The position numbers were made by a program, and so were the translations under genes. DNA of 64,000 nucleotides from NCBI GenBank assembly GCA_949361645.1, contig OX442430.1, forward strand, positions 3,147,856-3,211,855. Reading direction: 5' to 3'. Shown one piece after another: positions 3,438 to 58,105 of this stretch. Numbering within the stretch: the first letter of the stretch is position 1; each line of letters opens with the position of its first letter. Source of the stretch: Spongilla lacustris. Taxonomy: Eukaryota > Porifera > Demospongiae > Spongillida > Spongillidae. Below the pieces are notes generated by a model. It ran no database searches. It was not told the origin of the DNA and saw only the letters and a list, made by a program, of their open reading frames with translations.

Positions 3438-6400
3438 GTGATGCAGACTGGTAAGGACTCCTGGATTCTTATGTGCATACATTCATTTGGCTGTTACCCC
3501 TGGAACTCTTTATTGATGCTTCAATCAGATTTGGACACAAATATGGACAGCATTTATGATCAATCAAAGTTAGAAAATCTTCAAGGTAATCCATGTTAAT
3601 GGGCTGATGTATGAATTAACAATGACATCACCAACTAACAAGCCTCTTTTTAGATATGACGTTACCTGATATGCTGGCTGAGAGTGTTGAAGTGAATGGA
3701 GAGAAAGAGGAAGACGTAAGCCACTGTTTATTACTATTCTCTCATGCACACAACCATTTTGTTTTTGGACTGACATGCAGGCTGTAACACTGCAAAAACT
3801 TTGTTATACGATAGCGTATTCTATAGCGTATATTTGAATATACACCTTAAATATACACACCAGCGTATAGAACCATATACGCAGGTGCGTATATTCAAAT
3901 ATAACCGATCACGTGACATTTGTGGTTGCTTAGCAAACCGTTGAATTCACTTTGTGGCTACGTTGTCGGTCACCGTATACTAGTACTTCATATTCCGTAT
4001 ATTATCCTCCTACCACTCCCACCCCTCGTTCCCGATCCAGTTTAGTCAATTTAAAATTTTAATCATTTTGCACATGTACAACAAAACAACAAACTAACAG
4101 TCCGAGGCGGCAATCTGCATATATTCGATCCAAGGCACCTGTACAGAATACGAACAATAAATTCATATCGTAAAAAAAAATATTTCACTCACCACATATC
4201 ATATCCTCGTTCTGTTTATACATGATTCTATATATAAAGCAACAGATACATTATCGGGTAAGTGATATGCTTACCTTTCTTGTCTCCTATCTCCGATGTT
4301 TGACTTAAAACAATGGAACAGTGCGGGTTAAACACTTACCGTACCGTCCGGTCGGAGTCTGCAAAAAAAACCTTAGCAAAACACAACAAATGAATAGGCC
4401 TATACCTTTTTATATCGCGCTCCATTGTGCCTGTTGTTCTATCATTTCGGTTGTTCAACCGAACGGGAACACTTAGGACACTTGCCAACCTAGTGCAAAT
4501 AGAGAAAGGTGAATTCATTCTTTAGCAACTGCAACACATAATACCGGTAACTTGTACACTCTGGAAAGACGAACTATTGCCATTTAACGATCAAAACCCT
4601 GATCTCAGCGCGATTCAACACGACCATGAAATAGCCCGCCTAAACTCTACAAATCACATGCACGGTTAGTCAACCACATTTCTAATTGGAGCACTTTTGT
4701 ATCGTACTACACAAACATTTGTACAGGGGTCCAATAGAGGTCTACTGTGTAGGCATTCTACTGCTTCCATTGTAGCATTTACTGGGATCCGATGTGATCA
4801 TGACCAAACTCAACTGGCGAGTTAGCATAGGCCATAGCCATGCACCATGGGCCCGGCCTACCGCTCACAAAATTTACCGCCGTATATACACCAAGCAGAC
4901 ATACATGTATATAGCTAACCTTTGACGTCCAGCAGCATTAATACCGCATCCGCGAGTAAAGTGGGTAAATTTAAGCCGTTTTTGGGGGAAGTAAAAAAAC
5001 TAAAAGGTCCGCTGATGGGTATTTTTGTTTTCAAATACAGTAATGTGAAAGTACAACTCTTGAGACAACATTGGATGCATTTTGTGAGAGATCATTCAGC
5101 TCGCTGGATGCTACAAATGCGGCGATATAAAAGGGGTCCATTCCGATGAAACCTTAATTCATCATCATAGAAAAATGGCAATAATCACATTGTATAAGCC
5201 AAGTTGAACTATTACACATTTCAATCGATTTTCAGTCGTAAGCGATGTATTTTTTTAACTGTGTGCATGTGTTCTATCGTGTCTAAATAACTCTATACAT
5301 TTCCGCGTGCGTTTAAACTTGGATGCTTTTCACGATGTTTTGCGAGTCTTCATGCACATGTAATTTTAATTATTAGGGAAACTAAGAGCTGCATTGATAT
5401 AGATGGCTCATGTATGCTTATGAATTTACAGTCAAGAAGGGAAGGGGTGCAAAATGATAAAATGATAAGTGTAGTACCGCAATATGCCTATTTAAAGTGT
5501 GTGCATCAAAACTGCGATCGTTGCAGCTCTCATAAATTATAATGTGAACATAGTGTAAAAGGTTACTCTACTTATTTTACAACCAGTACCTGTGATTTTA
5601 TTGCTAGCGGATCTTTTAGGTTTTTAGTTTCCCCTAAATTTGTACCCACTTAACTCACGGATGCGGTATCAATAGAAGCAAAGTAGCACTCCGACTTCGA
5701 TGCCTACACACCTTCCTACCTCACGTGGGTCCGGGTACGGGACTGACCACTAATGAATTAATTCTATGGTATACTTATGTAAAACAGTGGGATTTTATGG
5801 ATTAAAATATACGCAGTAGTACAGTATATTCAAATATACTCTTAAGAATACACTATCGTATATTTTGAAGGTGTACTTATATAAACGGTGACGTATTTGA
5901 CACTTGCGTATTCTCAAATATACGCGGTCGTACACTTCAAATATACTACACAGGGTATATTTTGCGCATTCCTCAAATATACGCATAAATATACACTATC
6001 GTATGACAAAGTTTTTGCACAGTGTAAGCAATTATTTATAATTATGTAATCATTCAAAATACATATAGTAATGCAAAGTACAATACATACTTTTTATTAG
6101 AATTGTAAGATATAATAATGTTACACACTAAATAATAACTAGGTATGTATGCATAAATCAGTAAATTTATGTAATTAAAATGAACAATATGATAAAAAAG
6201 AAGGGTCCTGTTTTCAAAAATTCTTTTCTCTTTATATTACTGGAGCTGTTGAGGACCAGCTACCCTGGGGTAAAACCTTTCCCGTGTCCCATCATTGATT
6301 GCCATATGTGTACCACTTCCCCCCCCCTCCCTCCTCCTCCTCCCCCCCCCCCCCCCCAAAAAAGCAGGACTGCCCATAGTACTCCATCAAAAGCATATAG

Positions 6401-9400
6401 GGCTTGGTGATCCCATAGACCCAGGGTCAGCAGCCACTCCCTCCCCATTTGACATGAAATTCATACTTTATTTGTATGCAACGTATCACTTCTATTTCAC
6501 ATAATAATGACCAGTGTTTTTAGCAAGCTTATTGATAATGACAATATGGATCCCAGGATAATGCAATAATTATTAGGCCTGATAATATGGGGGTTCTGGC
6601 TGGGGGATTTGTTGGCACAAATATGCATAGAGGTAGTGCCCAAGGAATTAAAATGATTTTAATGATTCTCTTTTTAAAAGATGGGGGAGATTCAAAATCA
6701 AAAATGTGTAAGTATTAGTACTGGTTATTTTTAATGTGCATAACAATTCACTGCTTTGACCATTTCCACTTGCAGTGTGTAAGTTTATGTGTAAATACAT
6801 GACTGAACATATACATCTATGGATCAAATATCCTCTGTTGAATCTACATGTACATATTAGAGAGTAAGCTTATTTTTATATGGTTAATGAACCTTTTACT
6901 CAAGCACGTGTCTATATCTTCATATGGTGTCGCCTGATTGGTGAAGTGTGTAAGTGAGAACATTATATTATTTCTGTGAATTATAAATAATCTTGGTACA
7001 TCTTTTCTGCAAACAATTAAGCTGGTAGGTTACATATATACAACCAAGAAGTATTTTTAACATCACTGAATGTTTTGAATACAATGATTGCTGGGTATAC
7101 ATATAGCATGTAAGTTGCATACTCTGAGAATAAGGCTCTTTCAAATGTTATTCATTGTATTGGCCACTATGAATATTGTCGAACAGTCAGTAAGTTCTTG
7201 ATACAATGCACAATTTAATCACTGATTCACACAATGCTGCATGGATATTGGTTCTTGACATAGTATTAAGTCAAGTCACACGTACATAGACATGCATGCT
7301 TATCATCCTATATAATGTATGTCCTTTTTTTGTCCCCTATGTTGCCAAATGAAATGCAGCCAGTAAGAATTGTTGTGTAAATATTCTTATTTTTGATCTA
7401 TCATAAATGTCTTTTGCTGAAAATAATTAAGAGTGTAAGTTTCACATACATGTACAACAAAGAAGTATTATTAGTAACAGTTACATCACTGGATAATTTG
7501 TGAACAATGATTGCTATGCATGCCTTTGCTGCAAATAATTCAGACGGTAAGTTGTGCATGCAACAAATTAGTATTATTTATAACAGTTGTCTGGATGTTT
7601 TTTTGACTTTTGCTGTAAAGGTAAGTTACTAACACAACACAGGTGTATCATTTGACTGGATGTTTTGGGAACCATGATTATCCATGTATAGAGGGTAAGT
7701 AGAGTACTTTTGGAGCTCAGTCCTTAATTTCATATATTATTGCTGACAGGTAAGTTTCTTGATGCCTGCATGATTGTATTAGATGTGATCACTGATGCAC
7801 AATGCTTGGCTGGATTCACCCATTCCTGACTTAGTTTGTATGTCAAGTCACAAGTATATGCTTATCAGCCTGTTTATTTATGTTAAATTCTTAGGATCTG
7901 GAGGATCCGCTAAGAGTAAAATTACTGATGTTGGTAAGTGTTATTGGGCAATAATACCATGCACTAATGTTCTATCATTTCTTTTAGAAGTTACAACCTA
8001 AGCTAGTATTGTTTGCCCCATCACTTCTTCTACACCCACATATGAATCATCTTTAGAATATGCAGCAGGTGTGTGCTTACCATCATTAATTTGGATTGCA
8101 TGCATTTTGTTTTCATATGCACACAATGGCCCTTTGCACTGAATAGCTTAAAGCATAATTGATAAGAAGTGGTGGACTATCTAACAACCATAGACTTGAA
8201 ATTTCAAATCAGTCCACCAAAATGTTGGCCACACCACTCTGCCAGAAATATAAATTAATGGTTTTTGAATTTGGATTGTTTGACTCTAATGCACCTACAT
8301 GTAGGCCGATCTCAATCAGTCAAATCAATCCAAAAAAATAATAGATTTTAAAATTTGGATTAAGAAATGCTCCTATTAATATTTTATGAGCTGCTATTAC
8401 GAGTTAATGATCTTTTTAAAAGAATTCATACATCATTAATTCTTTGTCTCAGTATATGCAACAATAATAAATGTATAGCACCTAAGCATACACATGCAGC
8501 TGGCTGTATAAACATATCAAATATGTACATTAAAATTAATTGTTTTATTTGACGACATTCGAAGTGGTTCAAATCTTAATGTATCTTAATTCTTTTTTAT
8601 AATTAATTTATGATATACATTGTATTTATCTTTTATAACTCCTTTCATCTCACAGAAGCAGATGATGCTGCTACATGTGGTAAGTGCTTGGAGTGTTAGA
8701 AATAGTATAACTGTAATATCATGCAAACGATGCACCACATGCAGAAAGATTCCATTCCACATTGAAAATTAGTTACATGCACCACTTTCAAATTTGCAGA
8801 CTGTAAGTGTCCACTTGCTGATCGAGATGTGGAATGAGTTAATCTTGTTTCATGACTATTGCCTTTACATGAAACTATAGGATGTAAGTATTCTTTTTTT
8901 TACTTGTCACATTAACTTTTAAACTGATGTTCTCTACCAATAAATGAAGATTGTAAGTATCTATGTAGTCTATCGCATTACATGGATTCATTTTTGATGT
9001 TGTTGGCTGTACGTGATCATCAGTGTTATGTAAGTCTCATTTATGTGCATTGACCTTTACTAAAAATCCTCCCTCCTCCCATTGTAATCGAATACATGCA
9101 TTCGAATGATGTATGCCAGCCACCCTCTGTAAGTAATAAGGTGCACCTTACTGATGTGCTATCTAAATGTAACCTCTCTTATCACGCTCATTAAATAATG
9201 CAAACTACGTAGTCGGTAAGTTCCAAGTATATGTATTCCATTCTTTTGATGTATTCATGTATTTTCTCCACAATGTAGTTGGTAAGTACGCGTACCACAA
9301 TCTTCTCAACTTAACTTGAATAAATCCTGAATCTCTTCATTATTCGTGCCGGGCATGCAGTGTGTAAGTAGTACACATATGTATAAATGTATACATGCGT

Positions 9401-9492
9401 AAACCCATCGTGTTCCGTTGACTCTTCATGTATGAAATCGTCTACATATGCAGTGTCAACAAAACAAGCCGTGCTGCTCCTTTAGAGAATAA
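3438..9492 (+). CDS. Microexon gene: ladder of 3-nt exons (5' end not found)
   Basis: I do not recognise the protein. The model, read in one phase without a stop, uses these exons: 3438-3450 (or only 3447-3450), 3529-3585, 3654-3715, 3781-3783, 6681-6707, then 3-nt exons at 6776, 6861, 6947, 7022, 7107, 7187, 7360, 7432, 7544 and 7692, then 7895-7933, possibly 7988-8005, 8057-8068, 8656-8679, 3-nt exons at 8800, 8881 and 8950, 9024-9029 (6 nt), 9120-9128 (9 nt), 3-nt exons at 9213, 9279 and 9361, and 9454-9492 with stop TAA. Every small exon follows AG and is followed by GTAAG or close to it. Internal exon lengths from 3781 on are multiples of three. The larger 5' exons are acidic (LPDMLAESVEV, NGEKEED). 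The tail is Cys-rich (CQQNKPCCSFRE). The closest known concept is the micro-exon gene (MEG) class of schistosomes, but those exons are larger. Splicing is inferred, not shown. Confidence 0.65.
3529..3585 (+). CDS. 5' exon of the microexon gene (57 nt)
   Basis: The acceptor is CTTCAATCAG and the donor CAAG|GTAATCC. It reads LDTNMDSIYDQSKLENLQ with one base carried into the next exon. The upstream intron (3451-3528) is 78 bp and starts GTAAGG after ACTG. Confidence 0.6.
3654..3715 (+). CDS. Acidic 62-nt exon of the microexon gene
   Basis: The acceptor is CCTCTTTTTAG, a strong pyrimidine tract, and the donor GAC|GTAAGC. The phase matches the preceding exon (split codon G|AT) and it ends at phase 0. 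It encodes MTLPDMLAESVEV then NGEKEED. The next intron is 65 bp and ends ATGCAG in front of the first 3-nt exon. Confidence 0.65.
3781..3783 (+). CDS. 3-nt microexon GCT with transposon in its donor
   Basis: The acceptor TGACATGCAG is followed by GCT and then GTAA. At that point a CACTG-ended transposon (3788-6024) begins. Removing the element and one TAA copy restores GCT|GTAAGCAATT, a normal donor for this gene. Confidence 0.6.
3788..6024. mobile_element. CACTG-ended (CACTA/EnSpm-like) non-autonomous transposon
   Basis: The termini are CACTGCAAAAACTTTGTTAT at the left and its inverse TGACAAAGTTTTTGCACAGTG at the right, flanked by a direct TAA (3785-3787 and 6025-6027). A 3-bp duplication with CACTG ends fits CACTA/EnSpm-like elements. 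Subterminal regions (3810-3905 and 5800-6000) are filled with CGTATATTCAAATATAC-like repeats in both orientations, as expected for transposase-binding arrays. A second inverted pair (about 4935-5000 versus 5600-5660) suggests an older nested structure. No transposase is visible; the 75-codon ORF at 4922-5149 has no recognised motif. Confidence 0.75.
6250..6440. repeat. Poly-C containing short repeat in an intron
   Basis: A C16-17 run at about 6341-6357 is preceded by CT-rich DNA and bracketed by the weak inverted pair CTACCCTGG (6260s) and CCCAGGGTCAGC (6420s). It is probably a small MITE inside the large intron between the 3-nt exon at 3781 and the 27-nt exon at 6681. Confidence 0.35.
6681..6707 (+). 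CDS. 27-nt exon opening the main microexon ladder
   Basis: The acceptor TTCTCTTTTTAAAAG precedes ATGGGGGAGATTC... and the donor is TGT|GTAAGT. It is nine codons (MGEIQNQKC) in the phase kept by all following exons. It begins with ATG, so it could also serve as a start in an alternative transcript. Confidence 0.6.
6776..7700 (+). CDS. First ladder block: ten 3-nt exons
   Basis: AG-NNN-GTAAG(T) occurs at 6776 (TGT), 6861 (AGA), 6947 (TGT), 7022 (CTG, donor GTAGGT), 7107 (CAT), 7187 (TCA), 7360 (CCA, donor GTAAGA), 7432 (AGT), 7544 (ACG) and 7692 (AGG). Intron lengths are 68, 82, 83, 72, 82, 77, 170, 69 and 109 bp, then 74 and 71 bp around an AG|GTAAGT site with no exon at 7620/7621. Intron sequences are related to each other (shared AACAAAGAAGTATTATT and ACAATGATTG blocks near 7045-7100, 7455-7516, 7561-7600), so the units arose partly by tandem duplication. 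In the chosen phase none of the codons is a stop. The other two phases hit stops: one at the TGT-AGA pair near the start of this block, the other inside the 39-nt exon. Confidence 0.7.
7895..7933 (+). CDS. 39-nt exon of the microexon gene
   Basis: The acceptor is AAATTCTTAG and the donor GTTG|GTAAGTG. In the ladder phase it reads DLEDPLRVKLLML. An alternative phase reads SGGSAKSKITDV, which looks more protein-like but is incompatible with the downstream 3-nt exons. The preceding AG|GTAAGT at 7749/7750 has no exon between the sites. Confidence 0.55.
8057..8068 (+). CDS. 12-nt microexon (weak donor)
   Basis: The pyrimidine-rich acceptor ATCTTTAG precedes AATATGCAGCAG, followed by GTGTGTGC. Four codons (NMQQ). 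The donor is weaker than in the other units. A possible 18-nt exon at 7988-8005 (after TTTCTTTTAG, donor GTATTG) is weaker still. Confidence 0.35.
8069..8655 (+). other. Long intron of the microexon gene, no other signal
   Basis: This AT-rich 587-bp interval separates the 12-nt and 24-nt exons. I see no repeat ends or GTAAGT sites in it. It is the only long interval of the ladder downstream of 6681. Confidence 0.45.
8656..8679 (+). CDS. 24-nt exon of the microexon gene
   Basis: The acceptor CTTTCATCTCACAG is strong and the donor is GTG|GTAAGTGC. In the ladder phase it reads KQMMLLHV; the phase reading ADDAATC would run into TGA at a later 3-nt junction. Confidence 0.6.
8800..9369 (+). CDS. 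Second ladder block: 3-, 6- and 9-nt exons
   Basis: The units are ACT 8800, GAT 8881, ATT 8950, TGTTAT 9024, CCACCCTCT 9120, TCG 9213, TTG 9279 and TGT 9361. All have AG immediately before and a perfect GTAAGT immediately after. Intron lengths are 120 (before ACT), 78, 66, 71, 90, 84, 63 and 79 bp. All exon lengths are multiples of three, and the concatenated phase is stop-free. This regularity cannot plausibly arise by chance in about 600 bp. Confidence 0.75.
9454..9492 (+). CDS. Terminal exon of the microexon gene with stop
   Basis: The acceptor TACATATGCAG is followed by TGT, then QQNKPCCSFRE and TAA (9490-9492). The phase agrees with the ladder. A poly(A) signal follows at 9643. Confidence 0.6.
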   Translation, partial: CQQNKPCCSFRE

Positions 9493-9642
9493 CGACGCTC
9501 AACGTGCAAATTAGTCAAAATGACTCAGGGATTATAGTTATGCCGTGCAAAAGAGATCATTAGTTTCTCATCCACTTTTTTTTTTCAAGACAGGATGCGG
9601 GCGAGCGGTAATTATTCATTATCATTATGTATCATTGATTTT

Positions 9643-9648
9643 AATAAA
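9643..9648 (+). promoter_or_regulatory. Candidate poly(A) signal AATAAA
   Basis: AATAAA lies 151 bp downstream of the stop of the microexon gene, in AT-rich DNA, consistent with its 3' end. Confidence 0.45.
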
Positions 9649-57039: not shown

Positions 57040-58105
57040 CTGTCCTCTGAGCAGCAGGGGATTTTCCTTTGGGCAGCAGCCAGCAGGGGATCATCCTCTG
57101 AACAGCAGGGGACCATCCTCTGAGTAGCAGGGTATCATCCTCGGAGCAGCAGGGGATCATCCTCTGATCAGCAGGGGACCGTCCTCTGAGCAGCATGGGA
57201 CTGTCCTCTGAGCGGCAGGGGATCATCCTCTGAGCAGCAGGAGATCATCCTCTGAGCAGCAGGGGATCATCCTCTGAGCAGCAGAGGATCATCCTCTGGG
57301 CAGCATGGGACCATCCTCTGATCAGCAGGGGACCATCCTCTGATCAGCAGGGGACCGTCCTTTGAGCAGCATGGGACTGTCCTCTGAGCAGCAGGGAATC
57401 ATCCTCTGAGCAACAGGGGATCATCCTCTGGGCAGCATGGGACCATCCTCTGAGCAGCAGAGGACCATCCTCTGAGCAGCAGGGCGCCATCCTCTGAGCA
57501 GCATGGGACCATCCTCTGATCAGCAGGGGACCGTCCTCTGAGCAGCATGGGACTGTCTTCTGAGTGGCAGGGGATCATCCTCTGAGCAGCAGGAGATCAT
57601 CCTCTGAGCAGCAGGGGATCATCCTCTGAGCAGCAGAGGATCATCCTCTGGGCAGCATGGGACCATCCTCTGATCAGCAGGGGATCATCCTCTGATCAGC
57701 AGGGGACCGTCCTCTGAGCAGCATGGGACTGTCCTCTGAGCAGCAGGGGATCATCCTCTGAGCAACAGGGGATCATCCTCTGGGCAGCATGGGACCATCC
57801 TCTGAGCAGCAGGGGACTGTCCTCTGAGCAGCAGGGGACCATCCTCTGAGCAGCATGGGACCATCCTCTGATCAGCAGGGGACCGTCCTCTGAGCAGCAT
57901 GGGACTGTCCTCTGAGCAGCACGGGATCATCCTCTGAGTAGCAGTGGATCATCCTCTGATCAGCAGGGAACCATCCTCTGAGCAGCAGGGGATCATCCTC
58001 TGGGCAGCATGGGACCATCCTCTGGGCAGCATGGGACCATTACTGAGCAACATGGGACCATCTCTGAGCAGCAGAGGACTATCCGTCCTCTGAGCAGCAT
58101 GGACG
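57040..58105. repeat. 22-bp minisatellite, ~48 copies
   Basis: The unit GGGGATCATCCTCTGAGCAG plus CA has variants GGGACCATCC, GGGACTGTCC and ATCAGCAG, in an array of about 1.07 kb. Higher-order blocks recur (57183-57310 resembles 57540-57660). The unit is not a multiple of three, so the ORFs within it (CCSEDDPLL-like) are artefacts. Confidence 0.95.

Follow-up and report, generated by a model that had tools for sequence, protein, structure and literature searches.

Can a gene contain long series of exons that are a single codon each? The question is raised by a 64,000-nucleotide (nt) stretch of the genome of the freshwater sponge Spongilla lacustris (assembly GCA_949361645.1, contig OX442430.1, positions 3,147,856 to 3,211,855 of the forward strand; the whole stretch is called the window here, and its own numbering is used for it). 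In part of this window, three-base segments follow one another, each bounded by an AG acceptor and a GTAAG donor, an arrangement that we call a ladder. The initial annotation had put these at about 17 AG-NNN-GTAAGT sites; the ladder itself withstood analysis, the count being 16 three-base exons on the + strand at 6690-9492, i.e., 15 AG-N3-GTAAG sites and one AG-N3-GTAGG site. Of the 18 AG-N3-GTAAG sites on the + strand of the 64-kb window, 15 fall within 6.6-9.5 kb, and the - strand has a single one; in 1000 dinucleotide shuffles of 6651-9500 the sites averaged 0.10 and never exceeded 3, vs. the 15 observed there, and no comparable cluster was found in the window at AG-to-GTAAG spacings of 0 to 12 other than 3. 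The window ladder is part of one gene, an irregular representative of a large family, and we consider it very probable from the DNA that such a ladder forms the variable portion of a secreted peptide precursor gene, which would be expressed by stepwise one-codon splicing and would evolve by gain and loss of units. Directly visible at this level are the architecture, its genome-wide repetition, the avoidance of stops in one frame, splice signals that hardly vary, and triplets that outpace introns in recent duplicates.

The genome searched comprised 248.56 Mb in 51 contigs, the window being C17:3147856-3211855. A three-step ladder pattern was found 250 times, vs. 24 times in the reversed control (at least 17 of the 250 were a 38-bp satellite), and ladders were spread over many contigs. 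Inside 19 ladders an AG lay exactly 3 nt upstream of 415 of 437 GTAAGT donors, and runs of four or more sites numbered 91 at spacing 3 (overlapping loci multiply counted) and none at the other spacings from 0 to 12, a comparison made on the DNA of loci picked by spacing 3. A tblastn search with Ephydatia muelleri Em0009g88a identified 58 matches with E-values of 10 or less, mostly to the signal exon and with a few loci counted twice. That the ladders are a tandem-repeat satellite with a chance likeness to splice sites and no gene is extremely unlikely. Young ladders are 91-bp tandem arrays, and a genuine 163-bp satellite carrying AGCTTGTAAGT exists; however, that satellite has the triplet CTT in nearly every unit, whereas in 13 ladders the first two triplet positions were on average the most variable, the mean unit-to-unit pairwise difference being 0.71, 0.71 and 0.52 at the three triplet positions and 0.11-0.56 at flanking intron positions (just 0.08 in the upstream flank of L028 and L039; L037 showed the opposite trend at positions 1 and 2, 0.50 and 0.54, with 0.73 at the third). 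The window introns, moreover, are diverged with their splice motifs kept. The satellite locus (L006, C1:122000-127500) has AGCTTGTAAGT in nearly every unit and mimics a ladder with a hardly varying triplet; pattern matches at C1:123-138 kb proved to be 163-bp satellite with near-invariant CTT and were set aside.

A putative signal peptide was identified upstream of 11 of the 17 ladders scanned, and also in L050, L057-L060, L063 and the window gene, by hydrophobicity score or motif. In the typical precursor (L028, L029 and L039) the predicted product begins with MLKELSLLVTLLALFADARP (one residue different in L039) and continues with KDTVEMSDKV..SRDDILDG, and the exon before the ladder, e.g., EMIISYMRAKNAEGLKTQ in L028 and L039, ends in phase 0 wherever it was read. 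The predicted ladder peptides are Cys-rich, Pro-rich or collagen-like. That of L038, RRCPSHCFPDCCGPDPCFDIQCPPECCGCPPAGEGCGPRGK, would be encoded by an unbroken run of 41 single-codon exons at intervals of 77-108 bases, that of L057, EEGPGPRGPAPRPPTGPPPGPPGPPGPPGPPGGPRPYPRGPPG, by 43 three-base exons with three wider gaps, the highest count among the 25 ladders read; the L039 ladder peptide reads DNRNDINSGGSRPRPFPGGGPPHPPKAEPLPKRKNGK. Gly-Lys is the C-terminal end of six of the 25 (L004, L029, L037, L038, L039 and L060), and a Gly-Lys ending is an amidation signal. None of seven peptides matched a Pfam family, neither of two had a match among solved structures, and a search of IMG/VR contigs with an Ephydatia protein identified no relative. 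The collagen-like Gly-Pro-Pro peptide of L057 (C12:2.13 Mb), with one codon per exon, was apparently enlarged by three-unit duplications, and L064 (C22:4.23 Mb), which may represent an older or separate family, has a basic Arg/Ala/Ser peptide and introns that mostly end in AAG and look unlike the 88-nt consensus described below.

The reading of the triplets as codons, with their exons joined in one frame, is supported by several comparisons. Over 25 ladders, 4 of 598 three-base exons were stops vs. 24.2 expected by base composition (P=4e-7), and three of these four lay at or beside the ladder end (L032, L033 and L059). At seven of the 15 ladder ends inspected by eye, AAAG|TGA comes next, with a stop at once in the ladder frame. 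Cys codons were twice as common as expected by composition (78 vs. 36.9, P=6e-10), and the predicted peptides repeat unit by unit, e.g., GPPGPPGPP, AAPKTLVAAPKTLV and IPPIPP, with the block AAPKTLV occurring twice. In five recent duplicate pairs, 26 of 315 codon positions had changed (8.3%) compared to 350 of 14682 intron flank positions (2.4%; P=1e-7), units being matched by their introns and some intron bases being counted twice because neighbouring flanks overlap; the AG/GTRAG splice motifs had changed at 3 of 791 positions in plain alignments of the pairs. Two pairs were left out of this pool, L032/L042 (one codon aligned, TGA opposite CGG) and the older pair L013/L012, in which 3 of 18 codon positions were changed, two of them synonymously (TGT/TGC). 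Single units have been both gained and lost between L045 and L046, as seen from the unit spacings. These same data bear on the proposal that the ladder is a series of non-coding ratchet sites that only aid the stepwise removal of a long intron, the three bases being discarded or irrelevant. Two window sites at which AG directly abuts GTAAGT resemble the ratchet points of Drosophila (PMC8605326), but stop avoidance, length steps of three, the in-frame terminal TGA and triplets that change faster than introns all argue against ratchet sites alone, and we regard this proposal as very unlikely.

The introns of young ladders are themselves repetitive. Their 88-nt consensus, GTAAGTATCAATGATGTTACATTTCCCATTGCACCTTAACATGCCTACTTATTCCTTGTCACCATGGATACTATTATGAACAATGCAG, had at least 788 matches in the genome (40 of 165 candidates scored); among the matches listed (~150 of the 788) the copies were 94-100% like the consensus and lay on several chromosomes, several being identical across C12 and C17, and unit spacing was often exactly 91 (88 + 3). 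Within one ladder the 88-nt introns differed by 2-7% on average, with identical copies occurring (four ladders). Such numbers and spacing could suggest an origin by a mobile intron, or introner, with repeated insertion of the 88-nt element and a 3-bp target duplication that adds one intron and one codon each time, and some known introners do make 3-9 bp target duplications (PMC9860276). We consider this origin possible but unlikely: the three further copies fetched (L061-L063) all lay in ladders, short (one cut to three codons) or full, and none stood alone in an unrelated gene, and the repetition of the AAPKTLV block with its spacing points instead to tandem duplication.

The window gene, which drew attention to the family, is less regular: its longest run of 3-nt exons is 3 (at 45-130-base spacing, within the part of the ladder that was clustered) vs. 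41 in the best family member, and exons of 6, 9, 12, 18 and 24 nt and a doubtful one of 39 nt are interspersed among the 3-nt exons. Its putative signal-peptide exon, MLMELAFLAVLTALPAALARPRVHNSEM|gtaagt, spans -144 to -61, just outside the left edge of the window and thus out of view of the initial annotation. The proposed exons are as follows, the borders of the 13-nt and 39-nt exons and the terminal exons having been read by eye.

3438..3450, + strand: tentative 13-nt exon GTGATGCAGACTG, phase 0 to 1; L050 has a same-length exon, GTAATGCAGAGTG, by eye; borders checked
3529..3585, + strand: propeptide exon LDTNMDSIYDQSKLENLQ, end phase 1; L050 has LDTNMDNIYDQSKLENLE, compare SRDDILDG| of the main family
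3654..3715, + strand: propeptide exon MTLPDMLAESVEVNGEKEED, phase 1 to 0; homologous exon in L050, donor GTAAGCCAC
6690..6707, + strand: 18-nt exon IQNQKC (alternative 27-nt start at 6681); acceptor and length kept in 6/6 paralogues
6776..6778, + strand: 3-nt exon TGT (Cys); TGT/TGC in 6/6 paralogues
6861..6863, + strand: 3-nt exon AGA; site scan and paralogue alignment
6947..6949, + strand: 3-nt exon TGT (Cys); identical codon in 6/6 paralogues
7022..7024, + strand: 3-nt exon CTG, donor GTAGGT; donor kept in 6/6 paralogues
7107..7109, + strand: 3-nt exon CAT; site scan and paralogue alignment
7187..7189, + strand: 3-nt exon TCA; 6 or 9 nt in paralogues
7360..7362, + strand: 3-nt exon CCA; site scan and paralogue alignment
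7432..7434, + strand: 3-nt exon AGT; poor alignment to paralogues
7544..7546, + strand: 3-nt exon ACG; no acceptor at the aligned position in L050
7619..7620, + strand: AG abutting GTAAGT (7621) with no exon, either a ratchet-like site or an empty slot; another at 7748-7749
7692..7694, + strand: 3-nt exon AGG; site scan
7895..7933, + strand: tentative 39-nt exon; no aligned counterpart in L050, the sole paralogue inspected there
8057..8068, + strand: 12-nt exon NMQQ, donor GTGTGT; 12-nt counterpart in L050, AATAAGCAGCAG
8656..8679, + strand: 24-nt exon KQMMLLHV; L050 counterpart of 30 nt
8800..8802, + strand: 3-nt exon ACT; 6 nt, GCAGCT, in 6/6 paralogues
8881..8883, + strand: 3-nt exon GAT; identical codon in 6/6 paralogues
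8950..8952, + strand: 3-nt exon ATT; site scan and paralogue alignment
9024..9029, + strand: 6-nt exon TGTTAT; 9 nt in 6/6 paralogues
9120..9128, + strand: 9-nt exon CCACCCTCT; 9-nt counterparts in paralogues
9213..9215, + strand: 3-nt exon TCG; site scan
9279..9281, + strand: 3-nt exon TTG; site scan
9361..9363, + strand: 3-nt exon TGT (Cys); TGT/TGC in 5/5 paralogues
9454..9492, + strand: terminal coding exon CQQNKPCCSFRE and stop TAA

The paralogues in this list were identified by a DNA search with window 6600-9520 as a cluster at C3:6.57-6.77 Mb with a similarity of about 70-80% in several stretches, and one of them, L050, has a like signal exon (MLKKLALLAVLAALPAALARPRAHNSEM|gtaagt), the 13-nt exon, the propeptide exon LDTNMDNIYDQSKLENLE and a ladder. 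The arrangement AG-(3, 6 or 9 nt)-GT was preserved at 80 of 82 aligned paralogue ladder sites, in a comparison that sought exon lengths of 3, 6, ... 18 only, a filter that would let through roughly one random site in three. Changes affected 1 of 164 positions of the donor GT, 4 of 246 at donor +3 to +5, and 1864 of 7837 in introns (alignment cells with five or more gap columns were dropped, and the 18-nt exon and one non-aligning exon were left out). Exon lengths varied by three among the paralogues, e.g., TCA, TCGCCG and TCGAGCAAC at 7187, ACT and GCAGCT at 8800, and TGTTAT and TGTATTGGC at 9024. These comparisons refine what the initial annotation had described: exons of 6, 9, 12 and 24 nt are borne out by paralogue counterparts of 9, 9, 12 and 30 nt, its 39-nt exon is left doubtful by the lack of a counterpart in L050, and 18 nt is the better reading of its 27-nt exon, as the 18-nt acceptor is kept in all six paralogues and the 27-nt acceptor was absent from the three inspected. 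Its stop-free phase was found as described, ending in the TAA at 9490-9492 with an AATAAA beyond it at 9643, and its proposal of single-codon exons in one frame agrees with the comparisons of paralogues and duplicates and with the stop counts.

How might such a gene be expressed? In the scheme that we favour, ordinary exons, ending in phase 0, would supply the signal peptide and a conserved propeptide; they would be followed by a ladder of mostly one-codon exons with short introns between them (88 nt in many young copies) and by a last exon with the stop. As a 3-nt exon would be too small to be bound by U1 and the 3' splice-site factors together, recognition would probably take place across the intron, with stepwise removal. 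Each splice would then add one codon and expose its GTAAGT to the next acceptor, a ratchet that retains three bases per step, and most codons would be included, in order. Units of intron plus codon would be gained and lost over time with the frame intact, and codons would change rapidly; the result would be a repertoire of secreted peptides, often Cys-rich and perhaps C-terminally amidated, which may act in defence or signalling. A variant of this scheme, in which each codon could be kept or skipped by itself as the initial annotation had suggested, holds the exons to be real but their near-identical donors and acceptors to pair freely, each mRNA then carrying an in-frame subset of the codons and one gene specifying a peptide library. 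The similarity of the 88-nt introns within a ladder would permit this, and almost all exons are multiples of three, so skipping would keep the frame; the internal TGA of L019 (see below) would also be harmless if skipped. We nonetheless think the variant improbable, as repeats such as GPPGPPGPP and the largely conserved codon order in duplicates suggest that defined sequences matter. One can speculate, with similar reserve and some way short of an expectation, that the ladder is a germline-encoded combinatorial peptide generator whose units also recombine over generations, so that its peptides would evolve in length and sequence at single-codon resolution.

Several observations count against the ordered, one-codon splicing scheme or limit its support. 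The analysis covered DNA sequence. L019 (C1:9.00 Mb), one of the 25 ladders, has an internal TGA (HCG*GPC), for which a skipped slot, a decayed gene or something else are candidates, and ladders can be imperfect, as at the two exon-less AG|GTAAGT sites of the window (donors 7621 and 7750). In the concatenated ladders stops numbered 6 of 573 in frame +1 and 74 of 573 in frame +2; with so few in frame +1, stop counts taken by themselves set frame 0 apart from frame +2 but not from frame +1. Codons of the window gene differed from those of its paralogues at 54 of 222 positions, compared to the 1864 of 7837 in introns (P=0.87); as the codons change as often as the introns, the evidence from the window gene is conservation of frame and splice sites, not codon selection. 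Among the duplicates, one pair of the five (L004/L005) had no codon change, an unmatched count of codon changes (45 of 339) was inflated by out-of-register units, as the L045/L046 unit spacings indicate, and the Cys codons, which the duplicates point to as being held, changed at 0 of 20 compared to 15 of 85 others, a difference that is not significant (P=0.07). The signal exon was not found in the stretches scanned before six of the 17 ladders (L003, L020, L030, L033, L034 and the window piece); the scanned stretches of L020, L033 and L034 start almost at the ladder, and for L020 and L033 the tblastn matches include a signal exon upstream. A protein database search with the ladder part of L038 gave no match, and no recognisable ladder peptide was found in the E. 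muelleri models P0001-P0003 and P0005.

These E. muelleri models were reached with the spliced L028 precursor, which matched E. muelleri proteins with a best E-value of 3.7e-14, others being weaker; the precursor is common to both species, and all four models contain the signal peptide together with most of the propeptide. E. muelleri gene models are AUGUSTUS output (PMC7385117), and the absence of a recognisable ladder peptide after the propeptide fits the suggestion of the initial annotation that gene finders miss ladders. The P0002 model apparently extends into the start of an intron (..VSITNV..).

The closest known parallel is with the micro-exon genes (MEGs) of Schistosoma mansoni, which like the sponge ladders encode signal-peptide precursors, have tiny exons mostly divisible by three, are hard to annotate and change rapidly (PMC10526429). 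MEG exons, given in the initial annotation as 6-36 nt, span 3-81 bp or 6-81 bp according to that source, which has both ranges; it describes exons of mostly 15 bp, 10-20 per gene, with introns of 0.1-5 kb. The sponge ladders, in contrast, have mostly 3-nt exons, up to 43 per ladder, in units mostly 70-100 bases apart, and introns mostly shorter than 110 nt that often form one homogenised family, and their host is a sponge rather than a flatworm; given the exon and intron sizes of MEGs, we do not class the ladders as members. Single 3-nt microexons of Drosophila homothorax and of RPS24 indicate that inclusion by the spliceosome is possible (PMC7392893, PMC12686416), but they occur singly or in small numbers in ordinary genes, and not by the dozen. 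Drosophila recursive splicing shares the acceptor beside a donor and stepwise removal (PMC8605326), whereas ratchet points lie in long introns and as a rule contribute no bases to the mRNA, the ladders keeping three bases and having short introns. Introners likewise occur as many near-identical copies (PMC9860276), but in many genes, while every copy of the ladder intron seen here was in a ladder, at one-codon spacing; the main text of that source has neither the word sponge nor the word Porifera. Neither runs of single-codon exons nor sponge microexons were found among the literature matches listed, in a literature without bioRxiv and most subscription journals and with some of the searches aimed elsewhere. 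The case for the one-codon exon ladder as a new kind of gene is built on these matches, which are short of a full survey, and on its failure to fit the known classes. If transcripts confirm the splicing scheme, an exon can be as small as one codon, and dozens of such exons can follow one another, which would provide a test of what the spliceosome needs of an exon and of how splicing order is fixed, and would open the limits of recursive or intron-defined splicing to direct test by cDNA sequencing. Peptides could then evolve by gain, loss and swap of single codons without damage to the frame, and the ladders would reveal a peptide family that is truncated in the E. muelleri gene models considered here.

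Two further repeats were seen in the window. Inverted ends of ~40 bases (gcccgtagccagg...) at 190-240 and 1738-1780 flank a 1.5-kb segment of the window gene's first intron and resemble, by eye, those of a short transposon, and ~46 tandem copies of a 22-bp unit (CAGCAGGGGACCATCCTCTGAG) occupy 57081-58099.

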